Virus record (IMG/VR): IMGVR_UViG_3300040809_000789
Coordinates: 1 to 20,911 of that record
Length of the DNA stretch: 20,911 bases
Source of the DNA: a virus
Strand: one strand, 5' to 3'
Positions 3,018 to 19,154 of this stretch are shown in pieces (within the stretch, counting starts at the first letter, position 1; the number at the start of each line of letters is the position of its first letter). Below the pieces are notes generated by a model. That model made no database searches. It had not been told where the DNA came from and saw only the letters and a program-made list of their open reading frames with translations. Both the position numbers and the translations under genes were made by a program.

Positions 3018-3067
3018 ATTACCTCAACTTATTTTAAGACTAAATATAAACGCTAACTTTCATTGTG

Positions 3068-3508
3068 TCAAACATTAAATTTAACATTTAATGATATTTC
3101 GAAAACTGCGCGACTATCTTCTGTGTAAAGTGGGCGCGATACACCGCGAGTACTGATTGACATAATGCACTCCGCGCTTGACTTGTGGTTTGTAATTAAC
3201 CACTTGTAAATATCGCTAGCTAACCCGTTAGCTATTGCATGGTCATTATCCTCAGCTTTGCTAAATACTGCGATTAACATTGGGTATTCAGTGTAACCTT
3301 GATATGGTCTACCAAACGAATCACCGCCATTACGCCGAACAAGTACAGCTCGATCGCCTGGTGCTAACTTAGTTAAATCAATACTACCAGCCGTTGAATC
3401 TGTTGCACCTTGTGGATTACCGAAGCAATCAGTAAACGATGTTAGTAATCCGCTCGTTTTAACATGCTCAAGCAATCTTACATCTTCAAAATTAGCTAAA
3501 GTTGTCAT
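3068..3508 (-). CDS. Tail terminator-like protein, 146 aa
   Basis: Tail terminators cap the tail tube and join it to the head. The size, the position just before the tail tube gene and the alpha/beta layout fit this family. It shows an N-terminal helix, a strand pair around DRAVLVRRNGG, a YPMLIAVFSK strand, an ANGLASDIYKWLI helix and a final pair of strands ending in FEISLNVKFNV. It overlaps the upstream gene by four bases (ATGA), with GAGG upstream at a somewhat long distance. The family is divergent at sequence level, so the call depends strongly on gene order. Confidence 0.62.
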   Translation of the reverse strand: MTTLANFEDVRLLEHVKTSGLLTSFTDCFGNPQGATDSTAGSIDLTKLAPGDRAVLVRRNGGDSFGRPYQGYTEYPMLIAVFSKAEDNDHAIANGLASDIYKWLITNHKSSAECIMSISTRGVSRPLYTEDSRAVFEISLNVKFNV

Positions 3509-5909: not shown

Positions 5910-6107
5910 TCAGGTTTTACCATTCATAAAAACAAACAGCTTTTTTATGGATTTTGGCGTTTCCGCGTTATAAACGTAACTTAAAAGACTGGCAATAAAA
6001 ACCAGTGCGAGAGAAATTAACTCCAACATCAGCAAGAATAAAAATGGAATTATAATAACTGCAGCGCCAACCCACCACTGCCATCTTTTAGCCAGCCTTT
6101 TATTCAT
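5910..6107 (-). CDS. Small membrane protein, 65 aa
   Basis: A basic N-terminus (MNKRLAKRWQWW) is followed by a long hydrophobic run at about residues 13-46, long enough for one or two membrane passes, and a lysine-containing cytoplasmic-type tail. The start overlaps the stop of the upstream gene by four bases (ATGA). It belongs to a row of consecutive membrane proteins between the unknown 149-aa gene and the connector genes. A holin or antiholin role is possible, but nothing specific shows it. Confidence 0.6.
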   Translation of the reverse strand: MNKRLAKRWQWWVGAAVIIIPFLFLLMLELISLALVFIASLLSYVYNAETPKSIKKLFVFMNGKT

Positions 6108-6553
6108 AAATCACCATACTCTTTCGCTGCATTATCAAACTTTTCGATTTTAGCCAGTGCCGACTTAACCGAACCCATGTAGCAACCGTTAGATAGTGCC
6201 GCGGCATTCATATTTTTTGACGCGCCTTTTTTGTACTCAATAACGGCATTGAGAACATTGTCAGATATAGCTTTTGCGCCAGTTGTTTTAAATGCGTTTA
6301 ACTGACTCTCGATATCGCTAGGCCATGTAGCAAAGAACTTATTCCAGAATACAATCTTTTCAGCAAGCTTTTGGCCGTACTTCTTTTTAAAGTAGTTATC
6401 GCGACTATCCTTGCAGACTTTAAAGCTATCCCACTTGCCAGGCTCAAACAAAAAGCATTCAGCCGCTTTTACGTTTTCTTCCGAGTGCTTTCGTCCACTA
6501 GCCGACTCGCTAATAAACTTTAAAATGTATTCAAACTGTTTTTTGTTAATCAT
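6104..6553 (-). CDS. Unknown soluble protein, 149 aa
   Basis: I do not recognise this protein. It is helical and lysine-rich with no signal peptide. Aromatic residues cluster in the first two thirds (KAAECFLFEPGKWDSFKVCK, VFWNKFFATWPSDIE). It is the first gene after a strong minus-strand promoter (TTGTCA-17-TATTAT) and is followed by membrane proteins. That position would suit an endolysin in a lysis cassette, but no muramidase, amidase or transglycosylase motif is visible. An AGGAA element lies somewhat far from the ATG. A regulatory or accessory role is equally possible. Confidence 0.55.
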   Translation of the reverse strand: MINKKQFEYILKFISESASGRKHSEENVKAAECFLFEPGKWDSFKVCKDSRDNYFKKKYGQKLAEKIVFWNKFFATWPSDIESQLNAFKTTGAKAISDNVLNAVIEYKKGASKNMNAAALSNGCYMGSVKSALAKIEKFDNAAKEYGDL

Positions 6554-6585
6554 CTATTTATTATTTCCTAATTTGATTTTTAAAT

Positions 6586-6614
6586 ATAATAACAGTTAAA
6601 AATAAAGTTGACAA
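6586..6614 (-). promoter_or_regulatory. Sigma70-type promoter, minus strand
   Basis: On the minus strand TTGTCA (6614-6609) and TATTAT (6591-6586) are separated by 17 bases, each one mismatch from consensus. It drives the 149-aa gene and the membrane-protein cluster with a leader of about 25 nt. Its -35 overlaps that of the opposing plus-strand promoter with a one-base offset. Confidence 0.7.
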
Positions 6615-6636
6615 CTAAGTGATGCGTGTTTAGTAT
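6608..6636 (+). promoter_or_regulatory. Sigma70-type promoter, plus strand (first accessory island)
   Basis: A perfect -35 TTGACA (6608-6613), a 17-base spacer and a -10 TAGTAT (6631-6636) lie about 30 bases before the leader peptide start at 6667. It shares most of its -35 bases with the divergent minus-strand promoter. Confidence 0.7.
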
Positions 6637-6666
6637 TATGTTTAACTTAATGAGTGAGGCAACAAA

Positions 6667-6717
6667 ATGCTTAACTGGCTAATAACTAATATTCTAATGG
6701 ATGGTTACGATGATTAA
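6667..6717 (+). CDS. Possible 16-aa leader peptide
   Basis: A short frame (MLNWLITNILMDGYDD) has a better SD (TGAGG, seven bases before the ATG) than the gene that follows. Its stop overlaps the start of the secreted-protein gene in the eight bases ATGATTAA. This is the classic arrangement for translational coupling: ribosomes ending on the leader restart on the next ATG. The peptide itself has no recognised function. It could also be chance, since the frame is only 17 codons. Confidence 0.45.
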   Translation: MLNWLITNILMDGYDD

Positions 6718-7039
6718 AAAATTACTACTTATTGCAGCGCTATTCTCAACTAGCGCCGCAGCAAATGAAGAAACACTAGCCAAGCAATTAATTGATAACG
6801 CTTATGCAAAAGTTGGCCTAAGTTACAAATTCAATGAGGCGGAAGTTCGCTGGGATGGTGGTGCGACTAACAAGCCAATCGGAGCACGATTCGAAATTGG
6901 CACAAAGTACAAGAATTTCACGTTCGGGTACAGCCATCACAGCAATTTGCAAACCGGTTTCCCATTTAACGATAACCGTGAATACTTTAAAGATGAATTC
7001 TTTATCGATTACGAAATTAAGTTAAGCGAGATTTTCTAA
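6710..7039 (+). CDS. Secreted protein with signal peptide, 109 aa
   Basis: A clear Sec signal peptide is present: MIKK, a hydrophobic core LLLIAALFSTS, and a likely cleavage after AAA before NEE at about residue 19. The mature part is small and beta-rich, with GLSYKFNEAEVRWDG, FEIGTKYKNFTFGYSHHSN and FFIDYEIKLSEIF, so it is probably periplasmic or outer-membrane associated. The GYSHHSN phrase faintly recalls the active-site region of PagL-type lipid A deacylases, but the protein is shorter than a full eight-strand barrel. I chose the ATG at 6710 over the one at 6701 because it overlaps the leader stop and starts directly with the signal peptide. It is the first main gene of the accessory island; an envelope-modifying role is a guess. 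Confidence 0.65.
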   Translation: MIKKLLLIAALFSTSAAANEETLAKQLIDNAYAKVGLSYKFNEAEVRWDGGATNKPIGARFEIGTKYKNFTFGYSHHSNLQTGFPFNDNREYFKDEFFIDYEIKLSEIF

Positions 7040-7191
7040 TGCTAAGCAAGAACGATGTAATTGATTTTATTCTTAGATACGCAACATATGGCTTACTGTG
7101 CGTAATGATTGGCTTTGCAATTGGATATGTTTTAGCGGGCCCACATGTTGTAGATTTTATTGTTAATTGGAGTAACAACAATGCTAAGTAA
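7039..7191 (+). CDS. Single-span membrane protein, 50 aa
   Basis: The frame starts with MLSKNDVIDFILRYATYG, passes through a hydrophobic helix at about residues 17-34 (LLCVMIGFAIGYVLAG) and ends in a polar tail. It begins on the stop of the secreted-protein gene (TAATG) and overlaps the next gene by 11 bases. Function is unknown. The tight overlaps on both sides are the main evidence that it is real. Confidence 0.6.
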   Translation: MLSKNDVIDFILRYATYGLLCVMIGFAIGYVLAGPHVVDFIVNWSNNNAK

Positions 7192-7372
7192 ACAAACAAT
7201 GATGCAGCTGAAAAGTGAGCTGCCAAACGATAAGTACATAGCAATACTGGAAGATGTTACTTATACGTCACATCGAGTCATATCATCACCTAAAACTGAT
7301 GACTGGCCGGAATTTATGGTTAACGAAGTACGCGCACTAAATCAGCGCATTAAAGAAATTAAGGAGAAATAG
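7181..7372 (+). CDS. Small soluble protein, 63 aa, unknown
   Basis: The ATG at 7181 was chosen because GGAG lies eight bases upstream; a TTG at 7160 would add seven residues but has no SD. The protein begins MLSKQTMMQLKSELPNDKYI, is mostly helical and charged, and ends in a lysine/glutamate helix (RIKEIKEK). It has no membrane segment or cysteine. It begins inside the preceding gene and is followed after one base by the next start. Function is unknown. Confidence 0.6.
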   Translation: MLSKQTMMQLKSELPNDKYIAILEDVTYTSHRVISSPKTDDWPEFMVNEVRALNQRIKEIKEK

Positions 7373-7373
7373 T

Positions 7374-7529
7374 ATGTCACTAGCATTCGGCGGAAACGCA
7401 CAAGTAAAAAGCGACCCAATTTGGATTATCGCAGGGCGCAGTAATAAGCGAGAAAAGAAAGTAACGCACCGTATTAATGGTGAGCGTGCATCTCGCTCTG
7501 AGTTTGAAATGTTTAAGGGTGGTAAATAA
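7374..7529 (+). CDS. Small basic protein, 51 aa, unknown
   Basis: The start has a strong SD (AAGGAG, seven bases upstream). The translation begins MSLAFGGNAQVKSDPIWIIA, is rich in lysine and arginine in the middle (GRSNKREKKVTHRING) and ends in a glycine/lysine tail. No known family was recognised. The stop overlaps the next ATG as TAATG, as elsewhere in this operon. Confidence 0.6.
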   Translation: MSLAFGGNAQVKSDPIWIIAGRSNKREKKVTHRINGERASRSEFEMFKGGK

Positions 7530-7657
7530 TGTTCGAAAATGACGATCCATTAGGCTACGCTGTAATGGCTGCTTTTTGGATCTCATTATTACTAAGTGGC
7601 ACATGGTGGCCTGTAACTTTAATTGTATGGGTATTGATATGGATTTATGCAAAGTAG
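7529..7657 (+). CDS. Small membrane protein, 42 aa
   Basis: After an acidic start (MFENDDPLGY) nearly the whole chain is hydrophobic (for example FWISLLLSGTWWPVTLIVWV), with a glycine/threonine break that allows two short helices. It starts on the stop of the preceding gene and overlaps the following frame by 19 bases. The function is not known. It is one of several very small membrane proteins in this island. Confidence 0.55.
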   Translation: MFENDDPLGYAVMAAFWISLLLSGTWWPVTLIVWVLIWIYAK

Positions 7658-7743
7658 AAAAAAGTATAACTTGGTTTGTTGTAGCTGCAATGTGTTTAGC
7701 TTTTTACACAGCAGTTACAGTTGGTTTTTATTTTTTTAATTAG
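7639..7743 (+). CDS. Very small single-span membrane protein, 34 aa
   Basis: The frame MDLCKVEKSITWFVVAAMCL continues as a hydrophobic helix to FYFFN. It overlaps the preceding gene by 19 bases and ends eight bases before the next ATG. Only a weak G-rich element precedes it, so it probably depends on coupling. The short length makes it less certain than its neighbours. Confidence 0.42.
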   Translation: MDLCKVEKSITWFVVAAMCLAFYTAVTVGFYFFN

Positions 7744-7750
7744 TTTTTAT

Positions 7751-8119
7751 ATGAGATATTTGACAGAAGAGGAATTGAAATTAGCGCCAGATTGGGCTGA
7801 TTCGTATTTTATGAATTTATCAGGTCGTTTAGTTTACTTTAGCGCTATCACCGGTAACGCTCAGCTTTTTGGGCATGATTACATCATACGATATCTTAGT
7901 GAGGATCATTATGCGTTTTCAAGATGTAAACCAATACCTCGCAAGCCATTCGACATAACGCAGTACGTGTTTAGTGACGGAAGAATTAACTTCGATAAAT
8001 ATCATAATGGCCTGCTAGTAGAGATTGAAAGTGATTTTTACGAGTGCGCACACATAAATAAAGATGACGCCATAGCAATAGCTAAGCACTTTAATTTAAC
8101 AGCGGAGGATTTAAAATGA
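7751..8119 (+). CDS. Soluble protein, 122 aa, unknown
   Basis: I set the start at the ATG at 7751 (MRYLTEEELKLAPDWADSYF); the frame extends upstream but only through T-rich sequence overlapping the previous gene. There is no clear SD. The protein is mixed alpha/beta with many aromatics, and ends in a small helical motif, DDAIAIAKHFNLTAEDL, that resembles the closing helix of many small phage proteins. It contains no membrane segment. The stop overlaps the next start by four bases (ATGA). Function is unknown. Confidence 0.6.
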   Translation: MRYLTEEELKLAPDWADSYFMNLSGRLVYFSAITGNAQLFGHDYIIRYLSEDHYAFSRCKPIPRKPFDITQYVFSDGRINFDKYHNGLLVEIESDFYECAHINKDDAIAIAKHFNLTAEDLK

Positions 8120-8559
8120 TTAACAGAGTATTTAACGCGCTAATGTTTGCATTACTAATGTGTGGCGCATCAATGAATATCACAGGATTAATTGACGTTT
8201 ATGCAGTTTATGTATTTACTCAGCTCGCACTCGTTATTGTGAGTGGTATTTATTGTTTGTACGTAGCTTATCAGTTCGATACCGAGCATGATAAATCACT
8301 ATTTATCTCTGATAGTCTAATTAAGCACTTTGGCAAAAGATTCGATTCATACAATAAATTTATTGTCCTTCCGATTAAGGTTCTTTCTGTAATTGCGCTC
8401 GCCCATGCAGAGTATTTTATAACAGCCAGCGTGCTATCAATCGTCCTTTTGTTTTATTTCAAGTTGAGCGCGTCAATGGGTAGGAGGTTTAGCGTTATGG
8501 AAGAGTACATTTTGGCTCAATCACAAAATAACGTTTCAGTAGTTAGCTTTAAAAAGTAA
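8116..8559 (+). CDS. Membrane protein with about four spans, 147 aa
   Basis: Hydrophobic segments lie at about residues 7-25, 29-51, 81-97 and 102-117, followed by a polar C-terminal tail of about 30 residues. A good SD (GGAGG) precedes the ATG at proper distance. It is the last gene of the first accessory island and its stop is two bases before a strong terminator. The family was not recognised; an effect on the host inner membrane, such as exclusion or anti-phage interference, would fit a moron but is a guess. Confidence 0.65.
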   Translation: MINRVFNALMFALLMCGASMNITGLIDVYAVYVFTQLALVIVSGIYCLYVAYQFDTEHDKSLFISDSLIKHFGKRFDSYNKFIVLPIKVLSVIALAHAEYFITASVLSIVLLFYFKLSASMGRRFSVMEEYILAQSQNNVSVVSFKK

Positions 8560-8560
8560 A

Positions 8561-8589
8561 CAAAAACCCCTCGCAATGAGGGGTTTTTG
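8561..8589. terminator. Bidirectional terminator between convergent genes
   Basis: A perfect 12-bp inverted repeat, CAAAAACCCCTC / GAGGGGTTTTTG, with a five-base loop. It has U tracts in both directions and ends the plus-strand island as well as the fibre operon, whose stop lies at 8591-8593. Confidence 0.9.
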
Positions 8590-8590
8590 T

Positions 8591-9820
8591 TTAGACCTCA
8601 GCAATAATGATAAAGCTATCATCTCTAGCGATAACCGAGTTTGCAGCCGTTTTATTCTCTACCTCAATTCTCACCCTATCACCTTTTGCTAAATTGGTTA
8701 TAAAGTTTATCGGAAAGAATGCCACATCATTTGGCCCAACAAGGTTGTTGATTAACCTAGATATATGACTAAGCTCAGTTGGATATGTAGCGCCTCCATC
8801 GGTTGACTTTGTTACCCGAATATCAATCAAATCGTTAGCTGTGCCTTGAATTGCTAAATCACCGGTAATGATGAAATCACCAACACCAGTAAGGCATTCA
8901 AACTCACCGTTAACAGGTTGACTAAAGTGTATTGATTTCTCAACCGTAAACGTACCTAATAAAGGGTAGTATGTATCTATCGCCGCTATCGCCGTTGATG
9001 CTTGAGCTGTAATGGTGGATTTAATGTATTTGTTTGTATTGGGTAAGCCAGTGTTTGATTTCCAATTCGACTTAACTGATTCGGCGCTTATGTTCGGTGT
9101 TATCCCAGTGTCTTGAGGGTTTATAGCGCCCTGTCTTGTTATAAACGTACCTTGAAGTAATAACGACTCGTCACCAAGTATTTCAGATTCAGAAAAATCC
9201 AGTAAAGATCCATTGGCAGGTAGGTCACAGTTAATATCTGTAATGAATCGACCAGAGAAAGTCAACCCGGAACCAGCTTTGAATAATGCAGATAAATCAG
9301 ATAACCCACGAACAATCGATGTTGATATTCTTGCGCCATTCCATGCACCTCTAAACTCTAAAATAGGTGTACCACCGAATCGGCCACTACCTACCTCAAG
9401 GTATTGACGATAATTATCAATGTAGCCAAGAGATGTGCAATCATTAAAGTTTACCTTATCAAACTCTATCGCCTCACCACCTGTAACACCTTTGATACCC
9501 CATAACGATGAGTTAGATCCGCTAGTGGTTAGCGTTAAATCAGCACCAAGGATATTGCCGCTACCACCAACCGGTGAAGTAAACATAGTGTAGTTTTCAG
9601 CGCTTGAAAAAAGCCTAGAAACATCGAAGTTGTGGCCAGACAAATACAAACCAGCGGCAGGAACCTCAATGGATTGAGAGCCCATATCAACAGCACCATC
9701 AATAAAATAAACAACATCACTTCTTAAAGTTGGGCTAAAATCGCTCGCGTCACGAATGTAAACAATCTTGCTTGGTATATCGCTGAATTCAACTGAACTA
9801 CCGCTCCGCCTAATCCCCAT
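8591..9820 (-). CDS. Fibre-like beta-helix structural protein, 409 aa
   Basis: The protein is rich in short strands, glycine, serine and asparagine with repeated turns (for example GSGNILGADLTLTTSGSNSS), typical of a right-handed beta helix used in phage fibres and spikes. The N-terminus (MGIRRSGSSVEFSDIPSKI) is probably an attachment part. The C-terminal part (about residues 290-409) reads as a beta-sandwich domain ending DDSFIIIAEV, perhaps a receptor- or sugar-binding module. I prefer the ATG at 9820, which overlaps the upstream stop as TGATG and follows an SD (AGAGGTGG), over the GTG one codon earlier. Its place right after the capsid genes suggests a head fibre or capsid-bound fibre rather than a tail fibre. 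Confidence 0.6.
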   Translation of the reverse strand: MGIRRSGSSVEFSDIPSKIVYIRDASDFSPTLRSDVVYFIDGAVDMGSQSIEVPAAGLYLSGHNFDVSRLFSSAENYTMFTSPVGGSGNILGADLTLTTSGSNSSLWGIKGVTGGEAIEFDKVNFNDCTSLGYIDNYRQYLEVGSGRFGGTPILEFRGAWNGARISTSIVRGLSDLSALFKAGSGLTFSGRFITDINCDLPANGSLLDFSESEILGDESLLLQGTFITRQGAINPQDTGITPNISAESVKSNWKSNTGLPNTNKYIKSTITAQASTAIAAIDTYYPLLGTFTVEKSIHFSQPVNGEFECLTGVGDFIITGDLAIQGTANDLIDIRVTKSTDGGATYPTELSHISRLINNLVGPNDVAFFPINFITNLAKGDRVRIEVENKTAANSVIARDDSFIIIAEV

Positions 9821-10107: not shown

Positions 10108-10134
10108 ATTTAATTCCTCGGTTACTTTTTACCC

Positions 10135-10143
10135 ATTATACCA
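10135..10143 (-). promoter_or_regulatory. Extended -10 promoter for the fibre operon
   Basis: The minus strand reads TGG-TATAAT, a consensus -10 with TGN extension, at suitable distance from the ATG at 10107. The upstream -35 is poor (AAACAT at 17-base spacing), as is usual for extended -10 promoters. Confidence 0.6.
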
Positions 10144-10153
10144 ACTAAAACTA

Positions 10154-10182
10154 TTGCATGTTTAAAGATGATGCGCTATTGT
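10154..10182 (+). promoter_or_regulatory. Weak sigma70-like promoter for the second accessory island
   Basis: TTGCAT (10154-10159), 17 bases, and TATTGT (10177-10182) precede the gene starting at 10212. Both hexamers are imperfect. It faces away from the fibre operon promoter in the same short gap. Confidence 0.4.
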
Positions 10183-10211
10183 GTTAGTGTTATTTTTAAT
10201 TGGAGGTTGTT

Positions 10212-10592
10212 ATGATTAACTTCAAATTTATGCACTTCAAGTGTAAAAGAAAAAAGAACGGTGCGTTAGGTGGTTTTGATACCGTTTACCTTAAAGGTTA
10301 TACGTTTCCAGCTATTCAGTGGGGAGCAATGGATGAGCGCGATATTTTTCAAGTTTTAAAATCTAGCAAGCCAATACAAAGAGCTAAGGTAATCCTTGAA
10401 CGCTCAGATCCTGAGCTATATGGCGGTCTAATAATTGACGGCAGTGAAGCTGAAAGGATAAGTAAAAAAGAGTATCAAAATGATAGCGGCGATAAACAAA
10501 CTCATTACATGGAGTACTTGCAATACTCGCCAACTGTGGCGTTCTTTTTAATTTTTGGAATGGCTGCTTTATCTGAGCATATGGGGTGGTAA
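10212..10592 (+). CDS. Protein with C-terminal hydrophobic segment, 126 aa
   Basis: A strong SD (GGAGG) five bases before the ATG at 10212 fixes the start; a TTG at 10200 lies on the SD itself and is rejected. The N-terminus is basic (MINFKFMHFKCKRKKNGALG) and the middle is mixed alpha/beta. One hydrophobic helix follows at about residues 106-119 (YSPTVAFFLIFGMAAL) near the C-terminus. It is probably a tail-anchored membrane protein. Function is unknown. The stop overlaps the next ATG as TAATG. Confidence 0.6.
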   Translation: MINFKFMHFKCKRKKNGALGGFDTVYLKGYTFPAIQWGAMDERDIFQVLKSSKPIQRAKVILERSDPELYGGLIIDGSEAERISKKEYQNDSGDKQTHYMEYLQYSPTVAFFLIFGMAALSEHMGW

Positions 10593-10938: not shown

Positions 10939-11192
10939 CACTAGAACAAATAGCACAACAGGCAATGGATTATCTAGATAGTGTTGGTGTGGCGGCGGAT
11001 TATGAGATTTACAATGATTTAGTTAGAGTCATAACTGAAGATATAGAGTGGGCGTATTTTTATTTTGAATGTGATGAAATGATGGAGGATATAAAAACTG
11101 AATACCCAGAAAGCAAAGAGCGACGAGAAATGAGAATGCGGATTGATAAAGAAATAAAAATGCGGATTGATAAAGTAAAAAGCCCCAATTAA
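10935..11192 (+). CDS. Acidic helical protein with repeated tail, 85 aa
   Basis: The protein is acidic and aromatic in the first 60 residues (EDIEWAYFYFECDEMMEDIK). It then ends in a charged helix containing two copies of MRIDK, encoded by a 24-bp tandem repeat. It is the last gene of the second island; its TAA stop lies in the loop of the terminator. A DNA-mimic or protein-binding role would suit such acidity but is only a suggestion. Confidence 0.6.
   Translation: MTLEQIAQQAMDYLDSVGVAADYEIYNDLVRVITEDIEWAYFYFECDEMMEDIKTEYPESKERREMRMRIDKEIKMRIDKVKSPN
11135..11175 (+). repeat. Direct repeat of 17 bp, period 24
   Basis: AATGCGGATTGATAAAG occurs at 11135-11151 and exactly again at 11159-11175. 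The period is a multiple of three and the repeat stays in frame in the 85-aa gene, duplicating the MRIDK segment. Confidence 0.85.
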
Positions 11193-11201
11193 GGGGCTTT
11201 T
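11178..11201. terminator. Bidirectional terminator at the end of the second island
   Basis: AAAAGCCCC pairs with GGGGCTTTT around a six-base loop (AATTAA). The loop contains the stop codon of the plus-strand gene. The minus-strand capsid operon ends at 11222 and would use the same hairpin. Confidence 0.85.
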
Positions 11202-15853: not shown

Positions 15854-16164
15854 CACACCACCCCTATCTCAAAATCATCTGCCATTTGCTTCAACTCATC
15901 ATAAGCAGCGTTATAAATTAATTCACTTAATTCATTGCGACAATCGCAACATTCAGCACCGTCTAGCCATTTATTGATTAGCGGCATCATGTCTAGGCTG
16001 TTACATATGTTGTCACGGTTAATTAGCTTTTCATTATTCCACTCTGTACTACGGTCATATTGCACTTCATTTGCCGCAACTAATTTAGCTGCACCATGCA
16101 GCCAATCACAACGGTTAGCATTCTTAGCTGCAATTGCTGCGTCTTTTGCTTGTACTATGTTCAT
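15853..16164 (-). CDS. Helical cysteine-containing protein, 103 aa, unknown
   Basis: The protein is helical and acidic, beginning MNIVQAKDAAIAAKNANRCD and containing DGAECCDCRNELSELIYNAA near residues 68-87. The CCDC cluster plus single cysteines at 19 and 54 could bind metal, but spacing does not match a known finger. It starts on the stop of the previous gene. No family was recognised. Confidence 0.55.
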   Translation of the reverse strand: MNIVQAKDAAIAAKNANRCDWLHGAAKLVAANEVQYDRSTEWNNEKLINRDNICNSLDMMPLINKWLDGAECCDCRNELSELIYNAAYDELKQMADDFEIGVV

Positions 16165-16352
16165 TATTCAACTTCCTCCCAAAAACCTTTACTGTCAAGA
16201 TGCGCGCAAGATGTTTTAAATCCTGGCTTTGGCGTTACTATACAAATTTCAATTCCATCATCATTGGTGATATACCAATCATTTACAACATCGTAAACCT
16301 TGCCAGCTGTTATGTATTCGCATTCGTTATAGTCAGTTTTTACTTTCATCAT
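16164..16352 (-). CDS. Small SH3-like phage protein, 62 aa
   Basis: The start is placed at 16352 (ATG ATG) because GGAGG lies five bases upstream; the longer frame from 16364 would begin before the SD itself. The sequence (MMKVKTDYNECEYITAGKVY, then DVVNDWYITNDDGIEICIVT) fits the widespread small beta-barrel phage proteins with a 'Y.....GKvYeV' core and a late W near the C-terminus. Their exact role is unknown. It is the first gene after a good minus-strand promoter. Confidence 0.6.
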   Translation of the reverse strand: MMKVKTDYNECEYITAGKVYDVVNDWYITNDDGIEICIVTPKPGFKTSCAHLDSKGFWEEVE

Positions 16353-16381
16353 TACTACCTCCATTCATTTAACTTGCACTA

Positions 16382-16410
16382 AATATAATATTAAACAAAA
16401 CACTTTACAA
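16382..16410 (-). promoter_or_regulatory. Sigma70-type promoter, minus strand (accessory block)
   Basis: On the minus strand TTGTAA (16410-16405), 17 bases and TATATT (16387-16382) precede the gene starting at 16352 by about 30 bases. The -35 overlaps that of the opposing promoter. Confidence 0.6.
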
Positions 16411-16432
16411 GTATTATTTTTAGGGTTATTGT
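16404..16432 (+). promoter_or_regulatory. Sigma70-type promoter, plus strand (third accessory island)
   Basis: TTTACA (16404-16409), a 17-base spacer and TATTGT (16427-16432) lie about 31 bases before the GTG at 16464. Five of its six -35 bases are also those of the minus-strand promoter. Confidence 0.6.
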
Positions 16433-16463
16433 TTGTATCGAAATTAATTATTGGAGATAGAGA

Positions 16464-17207
16464 GTGAGCGATATTAAATACCCTTATATTGGGAGAATCA
16501 CGAAAAGTGGTTCGATAATTTTGTTTTATGGCAAAGGCACAGGTGTAACTTTAGATTCTAAAACTTGTGTCACTACAGATGGCGAGCATAACGATAATAT
16601 TGATGAGCGTTACTTCAAAAACATCACCCGCGAATACCTAGCTAACACATACGGAAAGGTTGAAAGCAAAGAGCATGCGGAGTTTATTGTTGAGTTGGCT
16701 GAGAATGCAGGGTTTACAGTCTCTCGTATTGTAGCTATTGATAGCGTTAATTCATTTATGTTTTATGATGCAAGCAATTGTAGTTTGCACAGGGTAAATC
16801 AAGATGAACTTTCAAATGAAGAAGGTCGAAAACAAATCACAATACCAATGCCACCTAAGTGTGATGAACCACTAAACAACGGCGATAACCTTTTATTTGG
16901 TGGTGATGATAAGTGTAAGGAATGGCCCTGTGTTGGTGATGAGGTTTTAGCACCATTTGACCGAGTAAACGTAAAAGCAACCGTATGCTGGCAGAGAGTT
17001 AACGATAGCGGCATACATGTGTCACTTTTATTTGATGATGATTACGAGGCTTTTTGGTGCGTCACAGGAGATTTACAAAAACCAAAAACATTAGAAGAAG
17101 AGTTGTGTGAAGACATTGAGTACGCAATACACCACTTTGAAGGTGATAAAGTAGCCGGTAGAAAATGGCTAATGAATAAATACAACATAACCAAAAAGCC
17201 GCAATAG
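16464..17207 (+). CDS. Modular accessory protein, 247 aa, unknown
   Basis: Translation begins at a GTG seven bases after GGAG. Several short modules can be seen: a beta-rich start (YPYIGRITKSGSIILFYGKG), a helical motif ITREYLANTYGKVESKEHAE at about residues 54-73, and an SH3-like block (WPCVGDEVLAPFDRVNVKAT, from about 158). A C-terminal helix domain (EEELCEDIEYAIHHFEGDK) follows. I recall the REYL-SKEHAEF and WP-VGDEV modules in other phage accessory proteins, in differing combinations. It is the first gene of the third island. Its reaction, if any, is unknown. Confidence 0.6.
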   Translation: MSDIKYPYIGRITKSGSIILFYGKGTGVTLDSKTCVTTDGEHNDNIDERYFKNITREYLANTYGKVESKEHAEFIVELAENAGFTVSRIVAIDSVNSFMFYDASNCSLHRVNQDELSNEEGRKQITIPMPPKCDEPLNNGDNLLFGGDDKCKEWPCVGDEVLAPFDRVNVKATVCWQRVNDSGIHVSLLFDDDYEAFWCVTGDLQKPKTLEEELCEDIEYAIHHFEGDKVAGRKWLMNKYNITKKPQ

Positions 17208-17224
17208 CGGCTAAGGATTTTAAT

Positions 17225-17548
17225 ATGATTAAAAAAGAGAAGATTTACATAAAAGATATAGCAAAAGCGCCTTACTTTGATAGGTTTTTCTATTACTTAT
17301 TAAATCACCTTGGCACAGATATATTTGATCGTGATTATATGACTATAAACCCGTTAAAGTGGTGTTTGATGACTGTTATAGTTGCCGCATACACGGTGTT
17401 TGTTTACTTGGTAGTAACCCCTGTCGTAGGTATTCCTTTGTTGGCGTATGATGCACATAAAATGCCAAAACTATACGAATCAAGCGAGTTTAACGGCTAT
17501 TATCAGAATGACGTATATTTATTAAGGGAGTTGCCGGCTAACCAATAA
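17225..17548 (+). CDS. Membrane-anchored protein, 107 aa, unknown
   Basis: A basic start (MIKKEKIYIKDIAKAPYFDR) leads to a hydrophobic stretch at about residues 47-74 (CLMTVIVAAYTVFVYLVVTP), then an exposed tail with many Y and E residues. AAGGAT precedes the ATG. The gene's last 11 bases overlap the 3' end of the large terminase gene on the other strand, and no terminator lies between, so transcripts may collide here. Function is unknown. Confidence 0.58.
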   Translation: MIKKEKIYIKDIAKAPYFDRFFYYLLNHLGTDIFDRDYMTINPLKWCLMTVIVAAYTVFVYLVVTPVVGIPLLAYDAHKMPKLYESSEFNGYYQNDVYLLRELPANQ

Positions 17549-19154
17549 AATCATCAAGCCAGTCTGAGCTTTCAACCATAGCAAAAGCCATGACACCACC
17601 ATCAAACAAGTTAGGGCTTGGTATTCCTCGTTTTGCCAAGTCCTTTTTACTTTCAACCTTATCTTTTCCGTTATTATCAGTGTCGCGCAGTATGCGGCTC
17701 ATCTCGCTTATGAACTCTTCAAGTATTTGCGGATCCATTGACTCACTATCAAAACTAATCATTTCATCTTCGTTGAATTCCTCACCTTCCATGAGCGCCA
17801 TGTAAGTGTTTTTAACTCTATCAGCAAATGACCAAGTTGATTGCGCTTTAACGTTTGCGAACTTATCTTTGTTTGTTTTTCCTGGCGCATACTCATCAGT
17901 TGGATCGACAATATCCTTACTGCCAGCATTAAACCCTGTGAACACAACTTTTTCATATCCGTTTTGCGTGTTTCTTTCCTCGTTAAACTCATCAAAGCTT
18001 GAACCAGCATTAGAGCCAACGCCAACAGAGTCATAGATAATACTTGCCTTGTTGTCATATGCTAAGTTATAAACGCGTTTGTATGATTTGCGACTCTCAT
18101 GCTCTTTGTGCTGCCACTTGTCAATGTGAGTTACCACAGAGCCGTGGCGCATAACCGTAGTATTCCAGTCTTTACCACCATCCATAATATCAAAGCCGAC
18201 AACTTTCGAGCCAGATGGTTCAAAGCCCAACTTCTTATGTGCATCAATACAGGCTCTAGCGTAAAGCGCAGGTATTAACACACCTTCAACAGAAGCATCG
18301 TAATCAACATCAATTTCTTGCGCTACTGTTACTGGGTCCTGCTCTCTAACTTGCTTATCGTACCAAGCTTGATCTTTACGCGGGTCATCTTGCCACCTAA
18401 GAGTTAAAACCTTAACTTTACCGCTAAATCGTTTTCTGTAAAATGAGTTACCGTTTCCGTTCGGTGTTGATATATCAATCTGGCAGTTGGTTGTTTGTGA
18501 TAGTGCCGCGTCCGCAGCTTCTTGACGCTCAAGGAATGCAGCCTCATCAACAAAGTAAATTGATGTACGCGCACCACGGCCAATGTCATAACCACCTTCA
18601 CCGGTTAGCGTTGAGCCGTTTTCAGGATTGGTTATCTTTAAGAAGTTAGCGTGCTCTTTTTCGCTATAACCAGTAGGCAAAAACTCCTTTGGTATAAAGC
18701 GTAAAAACTGCCTACCTTTCTCAAATATGCTTTTAGGGTCGCCAAGGCGGTCAACTAAGTCAACTTTACGCGAACCATAGCCAGCCGTGTAATCATCCCA
18801 AAATAACCACATCGTACAGCCGTATGCGATAGACAGCCAAGACAAGCCAAAATCACGAGTCTTTTCTACTAAGCCTCTTTCTCTATTCCGCCACCTTTCG
18901 TGGATCCATTGTAAAGTTTCAACTTGCTTAGGAAATAGAATAAATGGCACTACGGCTGGTAAATCACGCTCAAGGTTACGCGGGTCGAATGTCATACCCC
19001 AATCGGTTATAAAATCCCAAGGATGGTTTTTGTAGTGCAACTTTGCCGCGGCTAATGCTTTTTGGTTTTGACGCAGAAAAGAAAGCCGTCTTTGGCGCTC
19101 TGCAAGGACGGCTGAATAGTTTGGATTTTTAAAGTCTATTTCAAGATTTGCCAT
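17538..19154 (-). CDS. Terminase large subunit, 538 aa
   Basis: This ATPase-nuclease motor packages DNA into the prohead. The ATPase half has a Walker A-like EKTRDFGLSW (97-106), Walker B IYFVDEAAF with Asp203 and Glu204, and the coupling motif ISTPNG (228-233). The RNase H-like nuclease half has the expected acidic residues: Asp322 in VGFDIMDGG, Asp375 in IIYDSVGVG and Asp518 in LFDGGVMAF. Length is normal for the family. It overlaps the small subunit gene by 14 bases. Downstream, instead of a portal gene, there is a plus-strand gene overlapping its 3' end. Confidence 0.93.
   Translation of the reverse strand: MANLEIDFKNPNYSAVLAERQRRLSFLRQNQKALAAAKLHYKNHPWDFITDWGMTFDPRNLERDLPAVVPFILFPKQVETLQWIHERWRNRERGLVEKTRDFGLSWLSIAYGCTMWLFWDDYTAGYGSRKVDLVDRLGDPKSIFEKGRQFLRFIPKEFLPTGYSEKEHANFLKITNPENGSTLTGEGGYDIGRGARTSIYFVDEAAFLERQEAADAALSQTTNCQIDISTPNGNGNSFYRKRFSGKVKVLTLRWQDDPRKDQAWYDKQVREQDPVTVAQEIDVDYDASVEGVLIPALYARACIDAHKKLGFEPSGSKVVGFDIMDGGKDWNTTVMRHGSVVTHIDKWQHKEHESRKSYKRVYNLAYDNKASIIYDSVGVGSNAGSSFDEFNEERNTQNGYEKVVFTGFNAGSKDIVDPTDEYAPGKTNKDKFANVKAQSTWSFADRVKNTYMALMEGEEFNEDEMISFDSESMDPQILEEFISEMSRILRDTDNNGKDKVESKKDLAKRGIPSPNLFDGGVMAFAMVESSDWLDDFIG

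Follow-up and report, generated by a model that had tools for sequence, protein, structure and literature searches.

Phage morons, or inverted accessory islands, are short cassettes that lie opposite to the structural genes and carry a promoter of their own. In bacteria, bidirectional promoters of the type described by Warman and Grainger share a -10 element, and their transcription starts lie 7-25 bp apart, mostly 18 (PMC10268837). At basal activity, no measurable competition between the two directions was seen for the bidirectional promoters of E. coli, and competition appeared only when one direction was strongly raised (PMC12825309). Where divergent promoters overlap, a switch is reported to require unequal strengths together with a regulator that acts differently on each promoter (PMC4207663).

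The 20.9-kb virus record analysed here over its whole length of 20,911 nucleotides (the window) is a fragment of a Pseudoalteromonas siphophage, with a large terminase (17538-19154, minus strand) that is 86% identical to its counterpart in phage TW1 and with close DNA matches in 13 phage records, all 13 of them Pseudoalteromonas phages. The genes of the window lie mainly on the minus strand and are interrupted by three short plus-strand islands. Two of these islands begin at gaps in which two divergent promoters share one -35 box, and we consider it probable that each of the two sites is a compact bidirectional sigma70 promoter cassette from which two operons are started. The third divergent gap of the window (10108-10212) is without a shared -35 pair, so that not every island border has this design. 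Terminator-like hairpins occur at about double the frequency seen in shuffles (30 versus 16.5, both strands of the window); strong ones are found at 8557-8593, between converging genes after the first island, and at 11178-11201, where an island converges with the minus-strand block. No Rfam family was matched in the window.

Several other stretches of the window are recorded here as separate observations. The mostly non-coding stretch 2753-2817 is 84-95% identical to stretches in HS1, HS5, PHS3 and PS_L5, Pseudoalteromonas phages that are otherwise different. The 37 bases at 17177-17213 are identical to those at the border of the terminase gene and a converging gene in H40/1, and possibly represent an exchange joint or a terminator. 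The best single promoter match of the window (3043-3071, minus strand, TTGACA-17-TATATT, 11/12) lies between two genes of the same strand, and its mirror promoter is also present (20/24 for the pair).

Site 1 lies in the gap at 6554-6666. Its heptamer TTGACAA (6608-6614), which is kept in the relatives G001 and G002, reads as TTGACA on the plus strand (6608-6613) and as TTGTCA on the minus strand (6614-6609). Spacers of 17 bp lead to the -10 boxes TAGTAT (6631-6636, plus) and TATTAT (6591-6586, minus), from which transcription would start near 6643 and near 6579, respectively. The whole intergenic element (6554-6666) thus reads as minus-strand ribosome-binding site (RBS), minus promoter, shared box, plus promoter and plus-strand RBS, and is 96% identical with that of G002 and 85% with that of G001. 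On the plus strand it is followed by a 16-codon leader ORF (MLNWLITNILMDGYDD, 6667-6717), which overlaps the start of the next gene and is retained in G002 across the aligned part. This next gene, the first of the island (6710-7039, plus), encodes a small protein with an N-terminal signal-peptide-like stretch (MIKKLLLIAALFSTSAAA), for which neither a Pfam nor a PHROG match was obtained. The first gene on the minus strand (6104-6553) encodes a protein of 149 aa (PHROG 23168, unknown function); in H40/1, G004 and G011, the neighbour of site 1 has homology to this protein in its C-terminal part. In G002 the element is separated from the 149-aa gene by a short gene, and the part corresponding to the last two genes of the window's island is lacking.

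Site 2 lies in the terminase-side gap at 16365-16463, and the whole intergenic element is present in ten relatives. The heptamer is TTTACAA (16404-16410; TTGACAA in most relatives), read as TTTACA on the plus strand (16404-16409) and as TTGTAA on the minus strand (16410-16405), again with 17-bp spacers to the -10 boxes TATTGT (16427-16432, plus) and TATATT (16387-16382, minus). The first island gene (16464-17207, plus) begins with GTG and encodes 247 aa (PHROGs 15819 and 32526, unknown function); in nine other records, too, the element is followed by a relative of this gene. The first minus-strand gene (16164-16364) encodes 66 aa, and its place is taken by different gene families in the relatives. 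No 7-base stretch of the element is better conserved than TTAATTA, just upstream of the plus-side RBS, with a column identity of 0.95.

The original prediction described these two gaps as back-to-back promoters with a common -35 box and the same geometry, and the relatives support it. The coordinates of both heptamers as overlapping -35 boxes are exact, as are the 17-bp spacers on both sides in both gaps. The distance of 39 bp that was predicted between the facing -10 boxes is also true in both gaps; it adds no coincidence of its own, since one heptamer flanked by two 17-bp spacers necessarily gives 16+7+16, but the exact 39 bp is not conserved in the relatives, most of which have spacers of 16+17 or 16+16 bp at site 2.

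To some extent, sharing of a -35 box comes for free. TTGNCAA is palindromic, and any TTGACAA promoter brings with it a 5/6 match to the -35 box on the opposite strand, so that the feature in need of explanation is the second -10 box. One may thus argue that the sites are a by-product of chance, in which a TTGACAA promoter of an AT-rich gap obtains a mirror through the self-complementarity of its -35 box and a single direction matters. Single promoter-like sites are not enriched in the window (46 versus 53.7 in shuffles). When shared pairs were scored out of 24 (two arms, 12 each) against the sigma70 consensus, site 1 reached 20/24 and site 2 reached 18/24, the window's own arms at site 2 scoring only 9/12 each. 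In dinucleotide shuffles of 37 divergent gaps, pairs of at least 20/24 occurred in 0.075 gaps and pairs of at least 18/24 in 2.1 gaps. Within the window alone, gap 1 therefore beats chance and gap 2 does not; since a pair of gap-2 quality is not rare in shuffles, gap 2 rests on comparative evidence.

For this comparison, the closest IMG/VR relatives of the window and annotated isolates were taken together (18 records, in which ORFs were predicted with a simple script). Pairs of at least 20/24 were found in 18 of 84 divergent gaps, in 1 of 165 codirectional gaps and in none of 32 convergent gaps. Shuffled divergent gaps gave 0.19 such pairs (maximum 2), about 95 times fewer than observed, so that the predicted enrichment in relatives over shuffled AT-rich sequence was borne out. 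At a threshold of at least 21/24 there were 8 pairs in divergent gaps versus 0.03 in shuffles, and shifting either -10 box by 5-8 bp reduced these 8 to 0-1. With published gene tables, 8 of 10 genome-wide sites of at least 20/24 fell in divergent gaps; shuffled genomes gave an expectation of 1.2 sites in total. The lineage's excess over its shuffles and the near absence of pairs from codirectional gaps argue against the chance reading, as does the presence on each side of a gene that needs a promoter and starts at about equal distance: on nearly every side the distance from the heptamer centre to the first start codon is 54-63 nt, enough to accommodate an RBS and a leader of about 20-30 nt. 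On the other hand, among the matches listed from viruses at large, the geometry is not peculiar to divergent gaps, whose share is similar for a spacing control (13/80 for the geometry versus 10/80), as the chance reading would have it; in the same listed matches, coding sequence accounts for 12/80 with the true geometry versus 34/80 with the control. No good copy was found in the viruses of the next clade out (G005-G008), and in the collections searched the cassette is restricted to this lineage. A by-product of chance is already disfavoured, and we regard it as very unlikely.

The copies represent two orthologous sites, assigned by position and neighbouring genes; an all-against-all comparison gave a cluster of 20, a cluster of three and singletons. 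Site 2 comprises gap 2 of the window and its counterparts in G001, G002, G004, G010, G012, G013, H103, XCL1123, TW1 and H40/1, which adjoin the large terminase or have the same right-hand gene family. Site 1 comprises gap 1 of the window, G001 and G002, with corresponding elements in H103 (18798), XCL1123, G004, G010, G011, G012 and H40/1. H40/1, G004 and G011 each have, next to the site-1 element, a homologue of the window's minus-strand neighbour (E 1e-13 to 1e-16); on the other side of the element, their neighbours are homologous to the plus-side neighbour in G001 (E 4e-9 for G011). DNA likeness extends even between site-1 and site-2 elements, with E down to about 1e-11. Judged from these likenesses, the enrichment reflects the descent of two, perhaps originally one, elements that were kept over a long divergence, and the copies thus stand for few independent events.

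In all 21 copies, two opposed promoters with spacers of 16-18 bp and overlapping polymerase sites are found, and each arm matches the sigma70 consensus at 9-11 of 12 positions. The two arms of a copy are never more than one match apart (11/10, 10/10 or 9/9), and are thus balanced in consensus match, which is a rough proxy for strength. Among 11 non-redundant copies of the larger family, with identity down to 47%, the heptamer columns T, T, C, A and A are invariant, and column identity is on average higher by 0.30 in the six palindromic columns than in the spacers (permutation p about 0.005). The sole palindromic column that varies has T for G in the lineage of the window (TTTACAA), where both arms drop together to 9/12. 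The central base of the heptamer is constant within each site, and the direction with the better -35 box is therefore conserved. At site 2 of G011 one arm survives, while its partner arm and the -35 region have been replaced. A variant is seen in phage C7 (L086, 14163-14278), in which TTGCAA provides equal 4/6 -35 boxes with 17-bp spacers on both sides; this is consistent with loss of the centre base of the heptamer.

A conserved palindrome may also be mainly an operator, at which a dimeric regulator represses or activates both promoters together. Symmetry indeed extends beyond the palindromic heptamer, at positions 7-8 and 12-14 from its centre (0.75-0.83 versus a background of 0.32), but the bases at 4-6 from the centre, which directly flank the heptamer, are near background (0.25-0.42). 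Moreover, the heptamer fits TTGACA both ways and has -10 boxes at functional spacing in all copies, and no regulator gene was identified beside the elements in a search that was not systematic. We therefore find it unlikely that the conserved centre is mainly an operator.

Under the preferred reading, a single palindromic TTGNCAA box would be the -35 element of two outward promoters, with a -10 box, a short leader and an RBS for each direction. About 100 bp would then start both the inverted plus-strand island and the neighbouring minus-strand genes, which would be co-expressed. Host RNA polymerase would bind in one orientation, fire and leave, and the next polymerase may go either way; both operons would be expressed, in a ratio set by the two arms. 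The cassette is inherited at two fixed sites of this Pseudoalteromonas siphophage lineage, with the flanking genes being swapped. We infer the actual start sites, the exclusive occupancy and the ratio and timing of expression.

That polymerase can use one direction at a time, as was originally predicted, is expected because the two -35 hexamers overlap by 5 bp and two holoenzymes cannot both sit on them. The prediction went further, and saw in this a compact switch without a repressor that makes the island and the minus-strand block mutually exclusive or balanced. Competition at bidirectional promoters does appear once one direction is strongly active (PMC12825309), and polymerase occupancy might make island and block alternative programmes. 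However, in every copy the two arms are about equally close to the consensus, differing by at most 1/12 (a measure of consensus match only), whereas overlapping promoters are reported to switch when their strengths are unequal and a regulator is present (PMC4207663); in addition, nothing would store the choice after promoter clearance. Of the two outcomes predicted, balance is defensible, mutual exclusion is unsupported, and a switch that works without a repressor seems to us highly improbable.

While the element persists, the neighbouring genes are exchanged at its edges. Near-identical elements adjoin unrelated genes, and the sequence break falls near the RBS. At site 1, H40/1 and G012 are 99% identical up to the right RBS and then have different right genes; at site 2, the left genes differ between G012 and G013 and also between H103 and G010, in which the sequences diverge outside the left leader. 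With this in mind, one may speculate that the element is a portable docking cassette, in which the conserved, quasi-palindromic bidirectional promoter and RBS unit with its shared -35 box offers homology for gene exchange by co-infecting phages. We put this forward as a tentative possibility; if true, any gene landing beside the element would be expressed at once. No site-2 element was recovered from plasmids, and a search of bacterial genomes for one exact pattern of a site-2 arm gave nothing. Gap 2 had matches in an Acinetobacter phage, but these precede a tRNA within a cluster of same-strand genes and were set aside as AT-rich chance; the match in Escherichia phage mellemsur lies between same-strand genes and was likewise rejected. 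BLAST with gap 1 alone gave no convincing annotated phage.

In the accessible papers, work on bacterial bidirectional promoters concerns shared -10 elements, and no conserved design with a shared -35 box turned up among them; isolated examples of overlapping -35 boxes probably occur in the subscription literature. The isolated phages TW1, H103, XCL1123 and H40/1, which carry this conserved class, offer a clean natural model: a single substitution changes both promoters at once, and it is the central base that determines which of the two directions receives the perfect -35 box. It also suggests how phages plug accessory genes into a block of structural genes with ready-made expression.

Like the promoters described by Warman and Grainger (PMC10268837, PMC12825309), the phage element has a pseudo-symmetric core on which sigma70 polymerase may sit in two orientations, one at a time. 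Unlike those promoters, which share their -10 element, it shares the -35 box: reciprocally overlapping -10 elements are not seen at the phage sites, where the overlap is at -35 and the -10 boxes are 39 bp apart. The starts predicted from the -10 positions would lie about 64 bp apart in the phage, versus 7-25 bp in the Warman and Grainger type, and the phage element, unlike that type, has an ORF in both directions. The second relative is the Pc/Pr pair of plasmid pLS20, which also consists of overlapping divergent promoters of which polymerase can bind just one (PMC4207663). There, the authors prefer a reading with reciprocal coincidence of -10 and -35 boxes; the two promoters differ greatly in strength, and the switch is made by a regulator together with DNA looping (PMC4207663); the phage arms, in contrast, match the consensus equally and no regulator is known. 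As in moron islands, finally, the genes lie on the opposite strand and have a promoter of their own, as well as a terminator in the case of site 1: plus-strand genes at 6710-8559 are set amid minus-strand genes, with a promoter at 6608-6636 and the hairpin at 8557-8593, the terminator of site 2 being less clear. Unlike in moron islands, a single conserved bidirectional element combines the island promoter with the promoter of the neighbouring operon, and it is the sharing of the -35 box, rather than of the -10 box, that distinguishes this element from the bidirectional promoters described so far in the papers searched.
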